Assembly (NCBI GenBank): GCA_947584375.1
Contig: CANPWL010000014.1
Span: forward strand, 1-48,555
Reading direction: 5' to 3'
DNA from: an uncultured Clostridia bacterium
GTDB lineage: Bacteria; Bacillota; Clostridia; Oscillospirales; Ruminococcaceae
Length of the DNA stretch: 48,555 nt
Each line of letters starts with the position of its first letter. Within the stretch, counting starts at the first letter, position 1. Position numbers and translations under genes: made by a program. The notes under the pieces are model-generated. The model was not told where the DNA came from. It worked only from the letters and a program-made list of their open reading frames with translations, and did no database searches. Below are positions 4,471 through 48,437 of this stretch, one piece after another.

Positions 4471-4947
4471 ATGTTGGACTATACAATCAGGGAAATAACA
4501 GAGGAAGAATATAGCATACTTGAAGATTTTCTATATGAGGCTATTTTTGTGCCAGAAGGGATGCCTGCGCCTTCCAAATCCATTATCAAACAACCGGAGT
4601 TACAAGTATATATCTCCGACTTTGGAAAGCAAAAGGACGATATAGGATTATTTGCAGAAGTGGGTGACAAAGTTGTCGGCGCCGTTTGGGTACGCATTAT
4701 GGACGATTACGGACATATTGATAACGATACACCATCCCTTGCCATTTCCTTATTTAAGGAATATCGCGGCTTTGGTATAGGAACTTCTTTGATGAAAGAA
4801 ATACTCCGTGTTTTGAAAATCAGAGGATACAAGCAAGCGTCACTTGCTGTTCAAAAAGAAAATTATGCGGTAAAAATGTATCAGAAAACAGGATTTGAAA
4901 TTGTAGATGAAAACGAGGAAGAATATATTATGCTTTGTCGTTTGTAA
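4471..4947 (+). CDS. GNAT family N-acetyltransferase
   Basis: This acetyl-CoA-dependent acyltransferase of unknown substrate shows the GNAT core: strand VGDKVVGAVWVR, then the acetyl-CoA P-loop motif YRGFGIGTSLM (Q/RxxGxG/A form), and the C-terminal AVKMYQKTGFEIV. I start at the ATG at 4471 (MLDYTIREI) because GGAGG (4464-4468) lies just before it; the TTG at 4474 is equally possible. The ATG at 4432 lies in the duplicated leader and has no ribosome site. Length (about 158 aa) is normal. First of five small enzymes on one strand. Confidence 0.85.
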   Translation: MLDYTIREITEEEYSILEDFLYEAIFVPEGMPAPSKSIIKQPELQVYISDFGKQKDDIGLFAEVGDKVVGAVWVRIMDDYGHIDNDTPSLAISLFKEYRGFGIGTSLMKEILRVLKIRGYKQASLAVQKENYAVKMYQKTGFEIVDENEEEYIMLCRL

Positions 4948-4966
4948 TACTACAAATTCGCGTTTG

Positions 4967-5001
4967 TTGAAATGTTAGAGAAAAAACAAAACATTGATTT
5001 G
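4967..5001 (+). repeat. 35-bp direct repeat, copy 2
   Basis: Second copy of the leader repeat (33/35 identical to 4427-4461), here directly before the GAGGTGG ribosome site of the TfoX-N gene. The first GNAT gene is thus bracketed by the two copies. Confidence 0.85.
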
Positions 5002-5011
5002 AGGTGGAATA

Positions 5012-5329
5012 ATGGCATCGAGTAAAGAGTATTTAGAGTTTATTTTAGGACAGTTATCCGAATTGGATGAAATTACATATCGGTCTATGATGGGAGAATT
5101 TATCATCTATTACCGTGGTAAAATCATAGGCGGTATCTATGATGACAGACTGCTTGTAAAACCAATAAAAGCAGCAATCAGCTATATGCCAACAGCTCGA
5201 TATGAATTACCCTATGAGGGAGCAAAAGAGATGTTGTTGGTAGACGAAGTTGACAACAATGAATATCTGAAGGGATTAATCCTCGCTATATATGATGAGT
5301 TACCAAGTCCAAAACCTAAAAAGAAGTAA
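5012..5329 (+). CDS. TfoX N-terminal domain protein
   Basis: The 105-residue protein matches the TfoX_N family: LGQLSELDEITYRSMMGEF, YYRGKIIGGIYDDRLLVKPI, and ALPYEGAKEMLLVDEV-like segments (here LPYEGAKEMLLVDEV). TfoX/Sxy regulates competence in Proteobacteria, but the free N-terminal domain in Firmicutes has no settled role. The ATG at 5012 follows GAGGTGG with good spacing. Residues 1-95 make up the domain; the tail is Lys/Pro-rich. It sits 27 bp before the next GNAT gene and is probably cotranscribed. Confidence 0.85.
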   Translation: MASSKEYLEFILGQLSELDEITYRSMMGEFIIYYRGKIIGGIYDDRLLVKPIKAAISYMPTARYELPYEGAKEMLLVDEVDNNEYLKGLILAIYDELPSPKPKKK

Positions 5330-5355
5330 AAACAGGATCATCGGAGGACTTTGAT

Positions 5356-5880
5356 ATGAATAAAGAGCCGATTATTGAAACAGACAGGTTGATTTTACGT
5401 CCTATAACGCTTGATGACGCAGAAGCTTGTTTCAGTTGGAACAGTGATGAGAGAGTTACGAAGTATATGTCTTATTCTACATATACCAATATCAGCCAAA
5501 CTATTGATTGGATAAAGTCAACTCTTGTGAACGAAAATGAATGGTATTGGGCATTTGTTCTGAAAAAGGAAAATAAAGTAATCGGAACAGGGAGCATAGG
5601 TCCAAATGCCCAAATGAAAGACTATTGGGGTATCGGATATAATCTTCATTATGATTATTGGCATAAGGGATATTGCACTGAAGCTATGAAAGCCATTATT
5701 GATTTTGCTCATAAAAAACTTGGTGTAAAAAAGATATGTTCAGATCATGCAATAGATAATCCACGTTCGGGTAAGGTTATGGAAAAGTGCGGTCTAAAAT
5801 TCGACCATTACGGAGAATACACAAAACATGACGGCAGCCAGACTTTTAAAGCAAAATTTTATAAAATGGAATTAGAGTAA
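5356..5880 (+). CDS. GNAT acetyltransferase, RimJ/RimL-like
   Basis: The 174-residue enzyme opens with ETDRLILRPITLDDA, the hallmark of RimJ/RimL-type N-acetyltransferases, followed by strands around VIGTGSIG and YWGIGYNLHYDYWHKGY. The acetyl-CoA loop and helix are in HKGYCTEAMKAIIDF and the C-terminal asparagine/strand region in NPRSGKVMEKCGLKF. Family members acetylate protein N-termini or small molecules; the substrate here is unknown. The start ATG has CGGAGGA upstream. It is the third gene of the acetyltransferase/methyltransferase cluster. Confidence 0.9.
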   Translation: MNKEPIIETDRLILRPITLDDAEACFSWNSDERVTKYMSYSTYTNISQTIDWIKSTLVNENEWYWAFVLKKENKVIGTGSIGPNAQMKDYWGIGYNLHYDYWHKGYCTEAMKAIIDFAHKKLGVKKICSDHAIDNPRSGKVMEKCGLKFDHYGEYTKHDGSQTFKAKFYKMELE

Positions 5881-5947
5881 AGGTAAATAGGTGTATCTAG
5901 GGTTTTGTAATAGAATATAGACTAATGAAATTTGCGGAGGTAACACT

Positions 5948-6637
5948 ATGTCAGAAAACCTACCACCTTGGGAATTGCTTTCCAAACATATGATATGGAA
6001 ACAGCTTGGCAGTATACATAATAAAAAAATACTGGATTTCGGAAGCGGTAATGGAGTTACTGCAAGTTTTTATGCAAGGGATAATGAGGTAATCGCCATT
6101 GAGCCGTCAGAAGAAATTTTAGTAAACAGAGTTTGTGATAATGATTATAACCAGATAACAGGTAGTACAAAAGAATTAAAACAATTCGGAAATGGGTCTT
6201 TTGACGTAATTCTTTGCCACAATGTATTAGAGTATGCAGAGGACAGGGAATTTATCGTCAATGAGTTTTACCGTCTGCTAAAACCGAATGGACTGCTTTC
6301 TGTTGTAAAGCACAACCGCACGGGCAGGGTAATGCAAATGGTGGTTTTGCTTAATAATTTTGAAAATGCTAATAGCCTTCTTGACGGAAAGGACGGAAAC
6401 GCGCAAAAATATGGTACAATCCATTATTATGAGAATACCGACCTGACAAAATGGTGCAAGGATTTTTCTGTATCTAAGGTGTATGGTATAAGAACGTTTT
6501 GGGATTTACAGCAAAATCAAGAAATTCAAAATGACGCTGACTGGCAGAAAAAGATGCTGCAAATTGAAATGCGTGTGCAGGACATTGATGAGTACAAAAA
6601 TATTGCTTTCTTCAATCATTTATTGTTAACTAAATAA
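5948..6637 (+). CDS. Class I SAM-dependent methyltransferase
   Basis: The 229-residue protein has a Rossmann-like methyltransferase domain: motif I LDFGSGNG at residues 29-36, an acidic strand end in VIAIEPS (SAM ribose), motif IV in FDVILCHNVLEYA, and the post-motif EFYRLLKPNGLLSVV. The pattern is that of the Methyltransf_11/SmtA-CmoM group, where substrates range from tRNA to small molecules; none can be assigned. The ATG at 5948 follows GCGGAGG. Gaps of 67 bp before and 89 bp after leave room for separate promoters. Confidence 0.88.
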   Translation: MSENLPPWELLSKHMIWKQLGSIHNKKILDFGSGNGVTASFYARDNEVIAIEPSEEILVNRVCDNDYNQITGSTKELKQFGNGSFDVILCHNVLEYAEDREFIVNEFYRLLKPNGLLSVVKHNRTGRVMQMVVLLNNFENANSLLDGKDGNAQKYGTIHYYENTDLTKWCKDFSVSKVYGIRTFWDLQQNQEIQNDADWQKKMLQIEMRVQDIDEYKNIAFFNHLLLTK

Positions 6638-41288: not shown

Positions 41289-41476
41289 GATTTAAAAGAA
41301 ATAAATGCATAGAATATATTATTACATAATCACTAATTGAATTGCGATAAATATATTATAAACGCTTAACTGAAATTCTATGTGCTTTTAGCAGATGTTG
41401 ACTTTTAATCATATAGAAAGCTATTGCAAGTAATATATTAAGAAAACTCGATAAAATTTGGGGTTCCTTTTTTATT

Positions 41477-41631
41477 TTAGTGAGACTTTTTGTATTTTGA
41501 AACGCTAGTAAAAACAGAGGGCGTTTATAGCCAGTATAAATCACAAAATATGTCGTTATATACAATTATTACAACATAATTTGTGCAAAAATACAAAGAT
41601 TAACAATATACTTGTATTTTACTTTACTTTC
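41477..41631 (+). repeat. 155-bp intergenic module, copy 1
   Basis: This stretch aligns without gaps to 44734-44888, with about 17 mismatches by my count (near 89% identity); the right two thirds are best conserved. It contains AATATAC-tt-GTATTTT, an imperfect form of the inverted repeat that is exact in copy 2. It ends about 95 bp before the secreted protein gene at 41726. The rest of the gap (41289-41476 and 41632-41725) shows nothing else I can name. Confidence 0.85.
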
Positions 41632-41725
41632 AAATTATTCTATGTTACTATGTATTTACAGTTGCTGTACCATTCATTCTAACAGATGTGCATATATTAA
41701 ATCCAACACAGTATGAATAATAATT

Positions 41726-42166
41726 ATGACAAACATTAGAAAAACAATTTTAAAAATGGTTGCCATTTTAATGGCAGCAACAACAATAGCAACCACAGGA
41801 ATCATTAGTGCAGGGGCATATGCTACTTACGGCAGTTCGTCAACTGCGGCTGCAAGTAAAAGCGGTTACAATATTTTTAAATATGGTGTTTCAAAACATT
41901 CGAACACCGAAATAATCAATTTTTCAGGAAAAAGCCGTTTTGTAATACCCCAAGTTATGGTTTTCAAAGCAAACGCAAACGGTAAATACAATGTAGTAGA
42001 TTATAGTAAATCTGGTGGTGTAATAGTAAAAAAAGGTTATGGTGAAGGTGTTGAAGTACCTCAATCATCCGGTTACAGAAGATACTGGCATAGAGGCGTT
42101 TTAAATAATACTACTTCATATAGCTCCGGACCTTATTATATATATGATTTTAACAAATATTTTTAA
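41726..42166 (+). CDS. Secreted small protein, possibly bacteriocin-like
   Basis: A 146-residue exported protein with a clear signal peptide (Lys-rich start, hydrophobic core to about 28, cleavage near AGAYA at 30-34). The mature part of about 112 residues is rich in Ser, Gly, Tyr and Asn, has no Cys, and ends in an aromatic stretch (YYIYDFNKYF). A small secreted protein followed by large FtsX-type membrane proteins recalls the lactococcin 972-type bacteriocin layout, but I see no firm sequence match to that family. No clear ribosome site precedes the ATG. Start confidence is therefore moderate. Confidence 0.7.
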   Translation: MTNIRKTILKMVAILMAATTIATTGIISAGAYATYGSSSTAAASKSGYNIFKYGVSKHSNTEIINFSGKSRFVIPQVMVFKANANGKYNVVDYSKSGGVIVKKGYGEGVEVPQSSGYRRYWHRGVLNNTTSYSSGPYYIYDFNKYF

Positions 42167-42179
42167 AGTAGGGATATAA

Positions 42180-43433
42180 ATGATTCTACTGAGCAATTTA
42201 AAACAATTTGCAACAAAAAACAGACTGATTTTCAGTCTGTTTTTGTTGTGCCAGATTTCAGCTGTATTAATTCTGTTTTTCTCAATGGGAGTTTATCAAA
42301 ACTACAATGAAAGCAAAATGCAAAATCAAAAGCAGCCTGAAGGTTTATTTGATGAAAGAACCGGCGAGGAATATGACAAAGATGACCCAAGCTATTTATT
42401 ATATCAACTATCTTATGAAAATTCAAAAGATAAACCATTAAAAGCAGGAACAGTAAAAGCATTTTATAGAGATCTATTAAATTTTATACCTAATAAATTA
42501 GACGGTTTTGGTACAAATTGTACATTTGATTTAGATGCTATTTTTGATGAAAATAAAGTTGATGCTATGCAAACATATATAAATTTTGGATATCAACTAA
42601 AAAACGGAGAAATAAATTGTACGGACGAATATGAAAATTTAAAAGCAGATGGTTGGTGGAAAAGCGGTAGGTATTTTACCAAAGAAGAATATATTAGCAA
42701 TAAAAAGGTTTGCGTAGCTGATATACAATCTATTAATGAAAATCCATTATTTGACGGAATGCTAAAATATAACAAAAAGAAAAAGAAATATTATTTAACA
42801 ACAAATAATACAAAATATGAGGTTATCGGGGAGTTTCAAAATCTTGGTTGCATTGATATTCCTTTTGAAGCTGTTGATGATAATTTTTATGTGTTTGATT
42901 CATTAACATTTAAGCTTAATACACCATTGACAAAAAATGAATTTGCAAAAATCAAGCAGTTATATTTAAAATATTTTTCAGACAGGCAGGTTGAACTGCC
43001 TGAGATAGCTGTTTCAGACGCAGAACAGGTGAGATTTTACAATACAAATTTGATTATTGCAATAGTTGTAGCTATATTGGTATCAATAAACCTGATACTT
43101 TTATTCAAATATATTTTAATGACGAGACGGAAAGAGCTTGCAATTTTAAGAATTACAGGTGCAACTGTAAATAAAGTCAGAAGACTATATATTCTTGAAA
43201 CAATGATAATATCAATCATTTTATTCATATTCAGTGCTTGTTTTTTTGATGTTTTTATTAAAGATATTGTTTTATCCCATTATGAATATGCCTACGTTGT
43301 ATACAGTCTTAAAAATTATTGTATAACATTTTTGCTGTATATTTTAGTAATATACATAATACTTAATGTTCTGATTTACAGACATATTAAAAAGACCCCT
43401 ATTTCACTATTAAAGGGTGGTGAAATAATATGA
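42180..43433 (+). CDS. FtsX-like permease A
   Basis: A 417-residue membrane protein with the MacB/FtsX layout: one N-terminal helix (about 17-37), an extracellular domain of roughly 240 residues rich in Asn, Asp and Lys, then three helices (about 288-310, 338-360, 378-400). The cytoplasmic loop RRKELAILRITGATVNKVRR is the FtsX-type coupling motif that contacts an ABC ATPase. It starts 13 bp after the secreted protein gene. No ATPase gene lies in this unit. It overlaps the next gene by 4 bp (ATGA). Confidence 0.85.
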   Translation: MILLSNLKQFATKNRLIFSLFLLCQISAVLILFFSMGVYQNYNESKMQNQKQPEGLFDERTGEEYDKDDPSYLLYQLSYENSKDKPLKAGTVKAFYRDLLNFIPNKLDGFGTNCTFDLDAIFDENKVDAMQTYINFGYQLKNGEINCTDEYENLKADGWWKSGRYFTKEEYISNKKVCVADIQSINENPLFDGMLKYNKKKKKYYLTTNNTKYEVIGEFQNLGCIDIPFEAVDDNFYVFDSLTFKLNTPLTKNEFAKIKQLYLKYFSDRQVELPEIAVSDAEQVRFYNTNLIIAIVVAILVSINLILLFKYILMTRRKELAILRITGATVNKVRRLYILETMIISIILFIFSACFFDVFIKDIVLSHYEYAYVVYSLKNYCITFLLYILVIYIILNVLIYRHIKKTPISLLKGGEII

Positions 43434-44677
43434 TTTTCAAATTAAGTTTTAAAGAAATAAGAAAAAACAAAATCTATACTTTTTTTAACTTAATACAACT
43501 GATACTAGTTATGTTTTTGATTGTATTGTTAGTTTCGTCCTTGCAGTCGACACTGAAATATTATATACCTATGAAGGATATACTTACATCAAAAGGCTTT
43601 ATGGCAAATTTATTTATAAACAATGAAGGTCAGGTTATCTTAAATGACCAACTATACTCACTTTCAGATAAGATTGATAAAGTATACTCAACCGGTCAGG
43701 AGTTTTTTGAGATAAAAAACTCAACCGGCAGATTAGAAGACAGCAACTGTTTAACTGCTATCACTATTGATAAGGCAATAATTAACGCTCACAAACCGTT
43801 AATGAAAAGTGGAAAATGGTTAAGCGATATAACCTTAAGCGATAACAAAAATGAGATTTATGCAGTCATAACAAAAAACAAATTAGGTTACACAACCGGA
43901 AGTGTTATTAATACAACTTATTCAGATAAGAATGAAAATGAAAAACCCATAACCATAAAAATAGTTGGTGAAATTGAGGACGGAGAAAATCTATTTTACC
44001 AGTCTAACACAGCAGTTGCAAGTGATGAAAAGCTAAATACAGATTTTGAAACAATCTCTGCACAATTTTATCCATACAATTCATCTGATGAAGAGGAGCC
44101 TTATCTTGTCATTACTAAAAATGAGCTTGATGATAAGAATTATCAAACATGGACTGCCGGAACATCATTTATAACCTTTGATAGTGACACGACAAAAGAA
44201 GAACTGTCAGATGCTAAGACAAAGCTATCACAATACGGTCAGGTATATAGTCTTGAAACTGTAAACAAAAAAAGTCTTCAAGAAGCAAAGGATCAGGCTT
44301 TCACTATTGTTCCAATGATTATTTCAATTCTGATTTTTCTTGCGATTTCATCAATCTGCTTAACAGCTATAAACACTAAAAAGCAACTCAGAAGCTATGG
44401 TATACTCTATATATGCGGTTCACGTTGGAAACAATGCGCACTAATAAGCGTATGCTCAACATTTATCATCACACTCTTTGCAGTAATTCTCACAGGTATA
44501 GTAATCTTTTTAGCAGACTATTTTGGACTTTTAAAAGGAACCGTAATAACCATTGGAAAATGGCAATTGATTTCCTGCTTCGCCGTACTTTTGTTTAATT
44601 TCATAATATCTCTGATAATGCCGTTTACGATTATCGGCAGAACAAGCCCTAGAGAAATCATAAAAAATAATGAATAA
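43430..44677 (+). CDS. FtsX-like permease B
   Basis: A 415-residue partner of the previous gene with the same layout: N-terminal helix (about 18-40), extracellular domain (about 45-285), three C-terminal helices (about 288-310, 335-360, 375-400). The loop KKQLRSYGILYICGSRWKQC is the FtsX coupling motif. Start and stop codons overlap (ATGA), so the two permeases are translationally coupled and probably form a heterodimer. They would need an ATPase encoded elsewhere, or may work in a signalling or immunity role. Terminator follows. Confidence 0.85.
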   Translation: MIFKLSFKEIRKNKIYTFFNLIQLILVMFLIVLLVSSLQSTLKYYIPMKDILTSKGFMANLFINNEGQVILNDQLYSLSDKIDKVYSTGQEFFEIKNSTGRLEDSNCLTAITIDKAIINAHKPLMKSGKWLSDITLSDNKNEIYAVITKNKLGYTTGSVINTTYSDKNENEKPITIKIVGEIEDGENLFYQSNTAVASDEKLNTDFETISAQFYPYNSSDEEEPYLVITKNELDDKNYQTWTAGTSFITFDSDTTKEELSDAKTKLSQYGQVYSLETVNKKSLQEAKDQAFTIVPMIISILIFLAISSICLTAINTKKQLRSYGILYICGSRWKQCALISVCSTFIITLFAVILTGIVIFLADYFGLLKGTVITIGKWQLISCFAVLLFNFIISLIMPFTIIGRTSPREIIKNNE

Positions 44678-44717: not shown

Positions 44718-44888
44718 TATAAACTTTAATAAATTAGTGAGACTTTTTTTATTTTAAAACGCTATTATAAGTAGAAAGTAATTATAGCCAGTATAAATTA
44801 CAAAATATGTTATTATATACAATTATTACAACATAATTTGTGCAAATATACAAAGTTTAACAATATACTTGTATATTACTTTACTTTC
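44718..44888 (+). repeat. 155-bp intergenic module, copy 2 (with extra left part)
   Basis: Positions 44734-44888 match copy 1 along 155 bp. The left extension 44718-44733 matches copy 3 only. The right part holds an exact inverted repeat AATATAC-tt-GTATATT at 44862-44877, a candidate operator. It leads into the promoter and hairpin of the subtilase-fusion gene. Confidence 0.85.
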
Positions 44889-44901
44889 CATGATTTCCAT
44901 T

Positions 44902-44933
44902 TTATAATAGAATTACAATCTATTCTATTATAA
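44902..44933 (+). promoter_or_regulatory. 12-bp perfect hairpin over promoter/leader of the subtilase gene
   Basis: TTATAATAGAAT (44902-44913) and its exact complement ATTCTATTATAA (44922-44933) flank an 8-nt loop. The left arm contains TATAAT (44903-44908) with a weak TTACTT 16 bp upstream; the right arm abuts the AAAGGATG ribosome site. It could be an operator across the promoter or an mRNA switch. Confidence 0.6.
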
Positions 44934-44947
44934 AAGGATGTTTTAAA

Positions 44948-47152
44948 ATGAAAAAAGTAATTAGTGTTATCTTATGTATGGTAATTAGTATTTCTGTTTT
45001 TGCACAAAGTGCAACGTCTGCAGATGAATCTGCTTTTTCAGATGATAAAGAAACTTACATAGTTTTGACCGAAACAGAAAAGGACGGTAAAGAAATTATA
45101 TCCGATTATGACGGCGAAGCCCTTTACAGTAATGAAGCAGTTAGCTGTGAACTTACAGAGCGTCAGGCTGATAAGTTGGAAAGCCAGCCCGGTGTATTAG
45201 CTGTGAGTGAAGACATTATACTTACTGGTACAGGAAAGAAATCAAAGAATAAAAAACAAATAAAAAGCGATGCTCCAAAGCAGTGGAATCTAGACGCCAT
45301 AGGTGTTAATGAATCTGATATTAAATCATCAGATGTAAAAATTGAAGTACTCGACAGTGGTGTTTCTTATACTGATGATATTAATATTCAAAGTAATATA
45401 AACCTTATTCCAGGTGAAGAAGAAGTAAGCATTATGTTTGAGGACGCAAATGGTCATGGAACAGGTATAGCAGGACTGATTGGTGCAAAGGATAACAATG
45501 ATGGAATAAAGGGAGTTTTCCCTAACGCAGAAATATATTCTGTTAAAGCGTTAGATGAAAATCTTAAATCTCCTTTAAGCAGAATAGTTGAGGGTATCTA
45601 TTGGGGAATTGAAAACGATATGGATATTATTAATATGAGCTTTGGTACAAGTATAGATACAGATGTTCTTCACGAGGCTGTTAAAGCGGCGGCAGATGCA
45701 GGAATTATTCTTATTGCCGCAGCAGGAAATACTGAGCATCAGGAAGTAAATTATCCAGCAGCATATAATGAAGTAATGGCAGTAGGTTCAATAAATGCAG
45801 AGGGTGAGCTTGCAGAGCTAACATCAACAGGTACACAACTGGAGTTGCTTGCACCAGGCGAACAGGTTTATACTACAGGATTGTTTTATGGTACAATAGG
45901 AGTAAGCGGAACCAGTATAGCAACGGCACAGGTTACAGGAACAGCAGCACTGCTTAAAGCTAAAGACAAAACCAAATCCGCAAGCTTCATAAGAGGACTT
46001 TTAAACGCGTCATCAAAAGAGGTTGAAGGAACAGGTGCAGGACTTATTGATTATAATTACGCTCTTGATATTTATGATGAATATGCAAAAAACTACATAA
46101 AGGATAAAGACATTGACAATGAATTCGAAAACACAGAAGAAATACCTGATTATTCCGATGATGCAGACGTAGTTGTTGAGGGTTTGTGGATGGCTGATAC
46201 AAAGTTAACAGATATATATAGTTCGGGTCATGGCAAAATTGTTAAAGATGCTGCCAGTAACTCAGGCATTACTCAAAAAAATATTGACTATATGGCAAGA
46301 ACAGCCAATTTAGCTGATAAAGGGGATGGTAGTAAAACGGGTGCGCAATATTATCATACTATAAAAGCTTTTCATGGAAAAGGAAATTATGTAGCCAGTT
46401 TAAAATATTTATGGAAATATGCAAATCTAATTGGTCAAGGAAAAACTCTTGCACAAGCAAAAAGTACGGCTAAAGATGCTGTGGATAAATCAAAAGCTAA
46501 ACCTGATGAAAAGCATGAAATAAAACTTGGCATCAATTCAGCTGAGTATATGCTTAAAGATCAAACTACATATTATAATAGTAAAAACATTAAATTAACT
46601 AGCACAAATAAAAAGTTTTTGGTTATGGGTTTTATAATGCATTTAATTGGTGACATCTATGCCCATGTGACTATTGTACCTATGTATACGTTGAATAAAG
46701 TACCAGGAGAAAACAGACATTATAAAGTTGCTAAATTCTCTGATGATCCTGACGGTGAGGAATCAAGATTTGGTATGGATGAATTTGTTGCTACTAAATA
46801 TTTTTATGAATTAAGAAACTCATATAAAGATACTGAAGCATTTAATAATAGAATTAAGGAAATTGCTAAGCATGCAGAAAAGGAAGTTAAAAAAAATGAG
46901 ATAGATTGGGGCTGTTTATACAGAGCAACTGAGCTTCAAGCATTAACATTCAGAAAAATAAAATATTTTATGATTAATAATTCAAACGCTAAATACGAGG
47001 ACAATCCACGATTTTGTCCGGAAAGATACAGAGCCGCAAAAAATGTTGCAAAAACCTATTTGAATAATTATACGCAGGCATTCAGCAATATTCTGATAAG
47101 TAAAGGAAATGTTAAACTTAATGAATTTAATGATTACAAAGCAAGAATATAG
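44948..47152 (+). CDS. Subtilase fused to a zinc-dependent phospholipase C-like domain
   Basis: A secreted 734-residue protein. Signal peptide about 1-25; an I9-type propeptide (about 36-92); S8 peptidase domain (about 110-375) with D136 (LDSGV), H170 (NGHGTG), oxyanion N261 (AAGNT) and S323 (SGTS), all intact. After an acidic linker (about 380-410) comes a helical domain of about 320 residues with SGHGKIVKDAA (H428), YYHTIKAFH (H470, H476) and MHLIGDIYAH, i.e. H565-x3-D569-x3-H573. The last is the zinc motif of the phospholipase C/S1-P1 nuclease fold. The second-domain call is inference from motifs. Repeat module and hairpin lie upstream; an LRR gene follows by 11 bp. Confidence 0.82.
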   Translation: MKKVISVILCMVISISVFAQSATSADESAFSDDKETYIVLTETEKDGKEIISDYDGEALYSNEAVSCELTERQADKLESQPGVLAVSEDIILTGTGKKSKNKKQIKSDAPKQWNLDAIGVNESDIKSSDVKIEVLDSGVSYTDDINIQSNINLIPGEEEVSIMFEDANGHGTGIAGLIGAKDNNDGIKGVFPNAEIYSVKALDENLKSPLSRIVEGIYWGIENDMDIINMSFGTSIDTDVLHEAVKAAADAGIILIAAAGNTEHQEVNYPAAYNEVMAVGSINAEGELAELTSTGTQLELLAPGEQVYTTGLFYGTIGVSGTSIATAQVTGTAALLKAKDKTKSASFIRGLLNASSKEVEGTGAGLIDYNYALDIYDEYAKNYIKDKDIDNEFENTEEIPDYSDDADVVVEGLWMADTKLTDIYSSGHGKIVKDAASNSGITQKNIDYMARTANLADKGDGSKTGAQYYHTIKAFHGKGNYVASLKYLWKYANLIGQGKTLAQAKSTAKDAVDKSKAKPDEKHEIKLGINSAEYMLKDQTTYYNSKNIKLTSTNKKFLVMGFIMHLIGDIYAHVTIVPMYTLNKVPGENRHYKVAKFSDDPDGEESRFGMDEFVATKYFYELRNSYKDTEAFNNRIKEIAKHAEKEVKKNEIDWGCLYRATELQALTFRKIKYFMINNSNAKYEDNPRFCPERYRAAKNVAKTYLNNYTQAFSNILISKGNVKLNEFNDYKARI

Positions 47153-47163
47153 GAGGAGTAATA

Positions 47164-48342
47164 ATGAAAAAGCTACTAACAACCATAATAAGCATAACTA
47201 TTTTAATGTCAATAATGATAAGTCCTGCTTCAGCAGAATTAAAAGACGGTTATAAAGATTATGGTAGTTACAGAGATAAATTCAAATATGAAGATGTAGG
47301 AGATTTCAGATATATATATAGATATGGAGGAAAAAGTTTAGAGGTCTTATATAAAAAGAGAAGTTCAAAGCAAGAAATAAAACGTATAGAGTTCCCGGCA
47401 GAACACAATGGAAAACAAGTTGATGTAATAGGATTTACAAATGATAATCATGACGAAAATTTAAAAGTAAATACTATTTTTATACCAAAAACCATTGATG
47501 TATTTAGCATAAGTTGTGTTTATGATCCTTTTGATGATGAAAGTGGTGAGAGATTAGTAAGTGTTAAAAATATAGAAGTAGATAAGGATAATCCTTACCT
47601 ATGCTCAAAAGACGGTGTTTTGTATTCAAAGGATATGAAGATATTGTATTTATACCCTAACAGGAACAATATGACAGTTTACAAAATGCCGAATACTATC
47701 GAAGATACTTTCTCTTATATGCTTTTATTTAAAAGAAATAATCTTAGAAAGGTTTATCTTTCAGATAATTTAAAAAAAATAGATTTATCTTCTCTGCAAA
47801 ATTGCAAAAATCTTGAGTATGTATATATTGGAACAAATACTAAAGAAATAGGAGAATCAGCTTTTTGCTCTGATGAAAAATTAAAGACAGTTAAAATAAA
47901 ATCAAAAAAGTTAAAAACCATTGGTGAGTCATCATTTAATGGGTGTTCATCATTAAAAAATATTAATATACCATCAACTCTAAAAATAATTGAAGGCTCT
48001 GCATTTCGTGATTGCAAGTCTTTAAAGAAAATAAAATTACCAAAAAATTTAAAGAAAATAGGTAGTTTTGCATTTATGGATTGTAAAAAGTTATCAAAAG
48101 TTATAATAAGCAATACGAATAAAGCACCTGAAATTAAAAATAAAGTATATTGTTATTATAATTATAAAAAAAATAAAAAAGTATATCAAAAGACCTTTTC
48201 CGGCACCAAGAAAGGCATAAAATTTCATGTCAAAAACAAAAAAGTTGCAAAGAGCCTAAAAAAACAGCTAAAAGGCAGTGGAGTTAAAAATGCAAAAATT
48301 TTGATAGGTAAAAAGGTAGTTTATCAGAATATAAATGGGTAG
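47164..48342 (+). CDS. Secreted leucine-rich repeat protein, BspA (LRR_5) type
   Basis: A 392-residue exported protein with a signal peptide (about 1-24, cleavage after PASA). The middle holds BspA-like repeats of about 23 residues, e.g. IGESAFCSDEKLKTVKI, IGESSFNGCSSLKNINIP and IEGSAFRDCKSLKKIKLP, with the LRR_5 pattern I-x3-AF-x2-C-x-L. The C-terminus is very Lys-rich. No LPxTG or dockerin is seen, so it is secreted or held by charge. AGGAGGA lies 5-8 nt before the ATG; the gene starts 11 bp after the subtilase fusion and is cotranscribed. Such repeats usually bind proteins or glycans. Confidence 0.9.
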   Translation: MKKLLTTIISITILMSIMISPASAELKDGYKDYGSYRDKFKYEDVGDFRYIYRYGGKSLEVLYKKRSSKQEIKRIEFPAEHNGKQVDVIGFTNDNHDENLKVNTIFIPKTIDVFSISCVYDPFDDESGERLVSVKNIEVDKDNPYLCSKDGVLYSKDMKILYLYPNRNNMTVYKMPNTIEDTFSYMLLFKRNNLRKVYLSDNLKKIDLSSLQNCKNLEYVYIGTNTKEIGESAFCSDEKLKTVKIKSKKLKTIGESSFNGCSSLKNINIPSTLKIIEGSAFRDCKSLKKIKLPKNLKKIGSFAFMDCKKLSKVIISNTNKAPEIKNKVYCYYNYKKNKKVYQKTFSGTKKGIKFHVKNKKVAKSLKKQLKGSGVKNAKILIGKKVVYQNING

Positions 48343-48347
48343 CGTTA

Positions 48348-48377
48348 AAGCAGGTACAGAAATGTGCCTGCTTTTTT
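48348..48377 (+). terminator. Terminator of the subtilase-LRR unit
   Basis: AAGCAGGTAC pairs with GTGCCTGCTT (10 bp with one G-U pair, 6-nt loop) followed by TTTT. Confidence 0.9.
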
Positions 48378-48437
48378 ATAAACTTTAATAAATTAGTGAG
48401 ACTTTTTGTATTTTGAAACGCTAGTATAAGCAGAAAG
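48377..48437 (+). repeat. 155-bp intergenic module, copy 3 (truncated)
   Basis: Matches the left part of copy 2 (44718 onward), including TAAACTTTAATAAATTAGTG, and then diverges after about 60 bp, losing the conserved right part with the inverted repeat. Like copy 2, it begins immediately after a terminator. Confidence 0.8.

Follow-up and report, generated by a model that had tools for sequence, protein, structure and literature searches.

A subtilase fused to a putative phospholipase C/S1-P1-type zinc domain in Clostridia: a candidate self-activating secreted hydrolase

Why should a secreted subtilase be joined, through an acidic linker, to a domain resembling zinc phospholipase C (PLC)? This question is raised by a gene in a 48,555-nucleotide (nt) stretch of DNA from an uncultured Clostridia bacterium (hereafter the window), which is one whole contig (G000:C14) of a genome of 1.72 Mb in 38 contigs; G and L numbers are our labels for genomes and loci. 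The gene is an open reading frame (ORF) of 734 amino acids (aa) with no internal stop, encoding in order a signal peptide, an I9-type prodomain, an S8 protease with its catalytic motifs, an acidic linker and an all-helical C-terminal domain (Table 1). The earlier note on this DNA had imagined a two-headed toxin, which is not supported, the protease looking more like a maturase. We propose, with a probability of about 0.6, that the protease serves as a built-in maturase: by cutting in front of Trp414, it would free the amino group of this residue for the metal site. As judged from the sequences, we infer that a self-activating zymogen cut between L413 and W414 is the most economical reading; the fusion is real and conserved, and the mechanism is suggestive.

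It is first noted that the protease part is clear. The match to Peptidase_S8 (PF00082) has E 5.5e-45 and 154.3 bits against a cut-off of 21.8, subtilisin E together with its propeptide matches best among PDB sequences (3whi_A, residues 35-356, E 6.2e-44), and the Asp, His and Ser motifs DSG, GHG and GTS are present in 12/12 fusions. Of the intact S8 protease with propeptide that had been claimed from the letters, the S8 part holds, and the I9 prodomain falls slightly below its Pfam cut-off; in the full-length prediction, the blocks of ten within its residues 31-90 have predicted local distance difference test scores (pLDDT) of 84-90. That model is poor overall (pLDDT 60, predicted template modelling score 0.44), with the prodomain confident and residues 378-420 below 50, and the acidic linker is disordered by prediction. 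Like subtilisin E-type subtilases, the protein has the I9 and S8 domains and the catalytic motifs, and unlike them it has a predicted zinc-enzyme domain C-terminal of the linker. Note also that in L047 (855-3326) and L060 (954-3446) the S8 domain starts at residues 85 and 69, respectively; because this leaves scant space for an I9 prodomain, their protease may be under different control.

The fusion recurs among relatives. Our comparison set has 12 fused and 11 unfused genes, after L035, L036, L038, L039 and L040 were dropped as the same genes as L019, L024, L022, L023 and L027, and L042, L044, L046 and L004/L028/L032 as truncated or fragmentary copies. The fusion is present in four of the 15 genus genomes (G000, G304, G074 and G164), and five genus genomes (G074, G298, G301, G302 and G303) hold six unfused copies. 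A first scan of named genomes using the window domain alone gave 0/43 stretches; the named-genome scan gave 15 loci, four of them fusions (L034, L037, L047 and L035, the last being the L019 gene), with several loci on Lapin contigs (taken as rabbit) and others from wild mouse and rumen. Profile searches matched 4/396 family, 3/394 order and 3/391 class genomes, these draws overlapping and each including the own genome, and added five fusions (L056 and L057 in one genome, L058 and L059 in another, and L060) and one unfused gene (L061). The fusion is therefore rare in the sampled draws yet spread over several families, and for this latter reason it is not an assembly accident. Among ordinary genes of the PLC family PF00882 (Zn_dep_PLPC), which 55/148 class genomes have, no S8 fusion was seen among the matches listed; the frames holding these matches measure 156-357 aa, and in the three larger ones (874-958 aa) the domain is N-terminal and S8 is absent. 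That no such fusion has been described, as had been surmised, agrees with our finding no paper on an S8-PLC fusion among the matches listed in the open-access literature, a scope outside which most subscription journals lie.

We now consider what the C-terminal domain is. W414, H428, D457, H476, H565, D569 and H573 are invariant in 23/23 aligned relatives, in the same order as what we take to be the PLC ligands W1, H14, D55, H69, H118, D122 and H128. Because this set is invariant, the H-x3-D-x3-H pattern, noticed earlier, is more than chance. Of the further residues proposed with it, H428 and H476 belong to the set, H470 is not conserved, and D457 had been overlooked. With a second-look structural aligner, the alpha-toxin PLCs occupy the top rows, with residue 1 on residue 1, and relative L024 exceeds the PF00882 cut-off (28.0 versus 26.8 bits). 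In alignment A3, which has 14 members including the window domain and L042 and was used for the structure model, 10/14 members match PF00882 at E<=0.1 (best 1.5e-6). By contrast, several results are weak or negative: PF00882 is weak for the window protein (E 0.024 at full length; E 0.0049 and 17.3 bits for the domain alone, below the gathering cut-off), Foldseek alone gave no significant match of the domain model in the PDB, a profile search of PDB sequences gave no match for the domain, and HHalign against two PF00882 groups gave probabilities of 5.4 and 4.3%. A fold unrelated to PLC, the outcome that the earlier note had said would tell against its idea, was not obtained, although the support is not clean. 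Taken together, the ligand set and the predicted structure lend moderate support to the domain being a member of the zinc PLC/S1-P1 nuclease superfamily.

The label "lipase", however, is not established. It is rather unlikely, though well worth keeping in view, that the self-activating layout is the same and the C-terminal domain is an S1-P1-type nuclease or phosphatase instead of a phospholipase. S1-P1 enzymes have the same fold and an N-terminal Trp, and SmNuc1, an S1/P1-type nuclease, stands in rows 5-8 of the second-look alignment over model residues 1 to 298. Moreover, D685 is invariant after H573, with no invariant His-x3-Glu there, so that H142 and E146, presumably the last two PLC-specific ligands, have no counterpart in the alignment. 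The domain differs from the PF00882 enzymes also in the spacing H-x3-D-x3-H, where for PLC we assume H-x3-D-x5-H, and in carrying a fused protease in front in place of a short propeptide. The likeness lies in the predicted helical fold and in the order of invariant Trp, then His, Asp, His, His-x3-Asp and His, as in the PC-PLCs of Bacillus, Listeria and Clostridium.

The evidence for the site of the cut comes from the junction. Fused and unfused genus proteins align from the Trp onward, whereas the sequences before it differ; that is, the homology of the two kinds begins at the same Trp. The unfused genus proteins open with a signal peptide, which an acidic pro-region connects to the domain; in 6/6 of them the residues preceding the Trp are I-[SAT]-P-M. 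The 12 fusions read [V/I/A]-x-[G/A]-x-W, with V, I, L, Y or F at P5, V in ten and I and A in one each at P4, and G in 11 and A in one at P2. According to an excerpt on Listeria PC-PLC (PMC10576769), the main chain of W1 binds a metal, one residue added before W1 turns the activity off, and the propeptide is removed by a separate protease, Mpl; proenzymes cut before W1 are thus known on the PLC side. The idea that the free N-terminus comes from cleavage is consistent with these observations, and the cleavage that had been placed near residue 410 is now expected at L413/W414.

On the other hand, two features of the junction are not explained by a cut at the Trp: P1 varies among the 12 fusions (L in five, S and R in two each, M, Q and C in one each), and V-x-G-x-W is also present in the unfused L045 and L048. 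Both would fit a protein that is not cut at the Trp, in which V-x-G-x-W is structural and an uncut protease sits beside a hydrolase or binding domain as a two-headed enzyme. We consider this unlikely, given that the unfused genus copies keep this Trp and His even though what precedes these residues is quite different, that the linker is acidic and predicted disordered, and that the Listeria excerpt reports the loss of activity noted above.

Based on the proposal of a built-in maturase, the pathway can be described as follows. In subtilases, the folded I9 prodomain keeps the S8 protease in check, and the protease sets itself free. The signal peptide would export the zymogen, whose prodomain would restrain the protease until the latter releases itself. 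The protease would then cut, within or between molecules, at [hydrophobic]-V-x-G-x ahead of Trp414, and the new amino terminus of Trp414 would complete a zinc centre with H428, D457, H476, H565, D569 and H573. The completed centre would activate a PLC/S1-P1-type phosphoester hydrolase, acting most likely on membrane phospholipids. Where the unfused relatives have their short pro-region, the fusion would have the unit of protease and linker. That the fused protease is a general maturase of the unfused copies was also considered and is rejected, because at E<=1e-10 the protease part is matched in none of G298, G301, G302 and G303; of the five genomes that hold unfused copies, G074 alone has both kinds.

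The next question is how the two parts came together. In the four genus fusions the protease domains are 93-97% identical, whereas the identity of the PLC domains is 55% for L020-L021 and 29-35% for the other five pairs. In 5/6 genus pairs the main block of blastn similarity (84-89%) stops at the end of the Trp codon, at an offset of 0 or +1 bases, and in L020-L021 it continues past this codon (81%); therefore PLC domains appear to have been exchanged behind a conserved protease module, with the module border being the future N-terminus. At identical residues the same codon is used at 0.64-0.79 in the protease part (chance 0.43-0.44) and at 0.47-0.61 in the PLC part (chance 0.52-0.54), the contrast being significant also for L020-L021 (p 3e-5) and window-L020 (p 0.004). 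The PLC part is lower in G+C (0.30-0.33) than the protease part (0.37-0.41). Many pairs of a fused and an unfused gene share their upstream DNA, the stretch encoding the signal peptide included (87% for L021-L025, for instance). Within 197 family genomes, at E<=1e-40, the protease module was found in the own genome and in two others of the genus, each time as a PLC fusion and in no case before a non-PLC domain; the same search gave one distant subtilase without PLC (34%).

That the break at the Trp codon reflects only fast in-place divergence of the C-terminal domain under selection, with the protease constrained and no exchange, would fit the mixed codon test for pairs with the window protein (not significant for window-L021, p 0.08, and window-L019, p 0.22), the patches of 53-60 nt at 75-83% identity that recur inside the PLC part of some pairs, and a poorly resolved PLC tree (10/20 inner branches open, long-branched rows placed unsurely), but it is improbable because shared codons drop from 0.78 to chance level at 0.53 in L019-L020 and L019-L021 (p about 5e-6) and the tree asks for 5 changes of the fused label, well supported branches forcing at least 2 of them, and a single origin is given by 0% of 200 bootstrap trees. 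In 14/500 shuffles the number of changes is as low.

The proposal can be carried one step further: somewhat short of an even chance, in our view, is that these genes make up a family of self-activating hydrolases, modular and exchangeable, whose recombination border, maturation cut and metal ligand coincide. If this is true, one protease module could serve any incoming PLC-type domain, because the cut would always fall ahead of the Trp of that domain; the propeptide of a zinc enzyme would here be an entire protease, and zymogen activation would be bundled in one exchangeable gene. Whereas Listeria PC-PLC needs the separate Mpl (excerpt of PMC10576769), here the protease appears fused and to end at the Trp. 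The free-N-terminus rule for PLC-type zinc enzymes would become directly testable, and the genes would point to a group of enzymes, secreted by Clostridia of gut and rumen, that is unstudied.

A comparison with polymorphic toxins is also in order. Here, as there, a peptidase precedes an exchangeable C-terminal enzyme, and a conserved N-terminal part with a swapped C-terminal domain, which characterizes those toxins, is what the block ends in 5/6 pairs indicate. The excerpt of a survey (PMC3482391) lists subtilisin among the processing proteases, pairs S8 with Ntox32, and gives Tox-HET-C, which has HxxxDxxxH, as a relative of PLC and S1-P1. By contrast, the C-terminal partner here stays in one family, the neighbour is a secreted leucine-rich repeat (LRR) protein and not a known immunity protein, and any toxin activity of the fusion would be hypothetical.

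Table 1. Positions of the fusion gene, its predicted parts and adjoining elements in the window.
Feature	Position	Strand	Basis or remark
Fusion gene, 734 aa	44948..47152	+	ORF translation
I9-type prodomain, residues 27-91	45026..45220	+	Pfam 19.8 bits, cut-off 21.2
Peptidase S8 domain, residues 128-358; motif residues D136, H170, S323	45329..46021	+	Pfam, motifs
Acidic linker, residues 379-413; D/E 12/35 residues; pLDDT <50 in full-length model; ends V-E-G-L before Trp	46082..46186	+	
W414 codon, proposed mature N-terminus and metal ligand	46187..46189	+	Homology border, invariance, DNA block end
Putative PLC/S1-P1-type all-helical domain, residues 414-734	46187..47149	+	Pfam, alignment, predicted structure
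H565-x3-D569-x3-H573, within helix 552-573	46640..46666	+	Alignment, predicted structure
Secreted BspA-type LRR protein, 392 aa; starts 11 nt after fusion-gene stop	47164..48342	+	
Upstream intergenic repeat, 194 nt	44724..44917	+	83% identical to 41467-41660

A secreted LRR-type gene directly follows the PLC gene in 10/10 genus copies. In seven of these neighbours (window, L019, L020, L021, L022, L024 and L026) Pfam LRR is above cut-off; it is below in those of L023 and L025 and absent in that of L027, whose DNA aligns throughout with L022. Outside the genus, in a scan that left out L045, L048 and L061, the next gene has LRR above cut-off for L037, L042, L058, L059 and L060, fn3 above and LRR below for L056, fn3 below for L041, Big_2 for L047 and no domain match for L034 and L057. 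Our guess is that the LRR protein probably serves as a partner for binding or targeting; it may also be an inhibitor. Against a special role, LRR genes match in 15/15 genus genomes, with 24 matches in the own genome, and the site at which G074 (L023) has both genes holds, in L103, an LRR gene (4915-6042) and no PLC gene. Separately, in L043 (5599-7683) a PLC-like domain and an LRR region are in one protein, with an Ig-like domain below cut-off between them, which suggests a functional link of the PLC-like domain to the LRR genes beside other copies. In L044 (6034-6441) a PLC gene is cut down to its 3' part beside an LRR gene, and in L019 (9691-13038) three tandem LRR genes follow the fusion, sharing a 101-nt 3'-end stretch at 94-96% identity.

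Phage or plasmid carriage was considered and gave no match at E<=0.01. Upstream of the fusion, the stretch 41726-44677 contains a gene for a small secreted protein (146 aa) and, behind it, two permease-like genes that overlap, one of them encoding an FtsX-like permease. The 146-aa protein has no Pfam or NCBIfam family above cut-off, and the idea that it is Lactococcin-972-like is unsupported by either. The intergenic repeat lies upstream of both the 146-aa gene and the fusion, and its first part (70 nt, 91%) is present again at 48368-48437 after the LRR gene. The same element is found at two other LRR loci of the own genome (L102 4236-4305 and L103 about 4797-4895), and shared regulation or service as a recombination substrate is possible.
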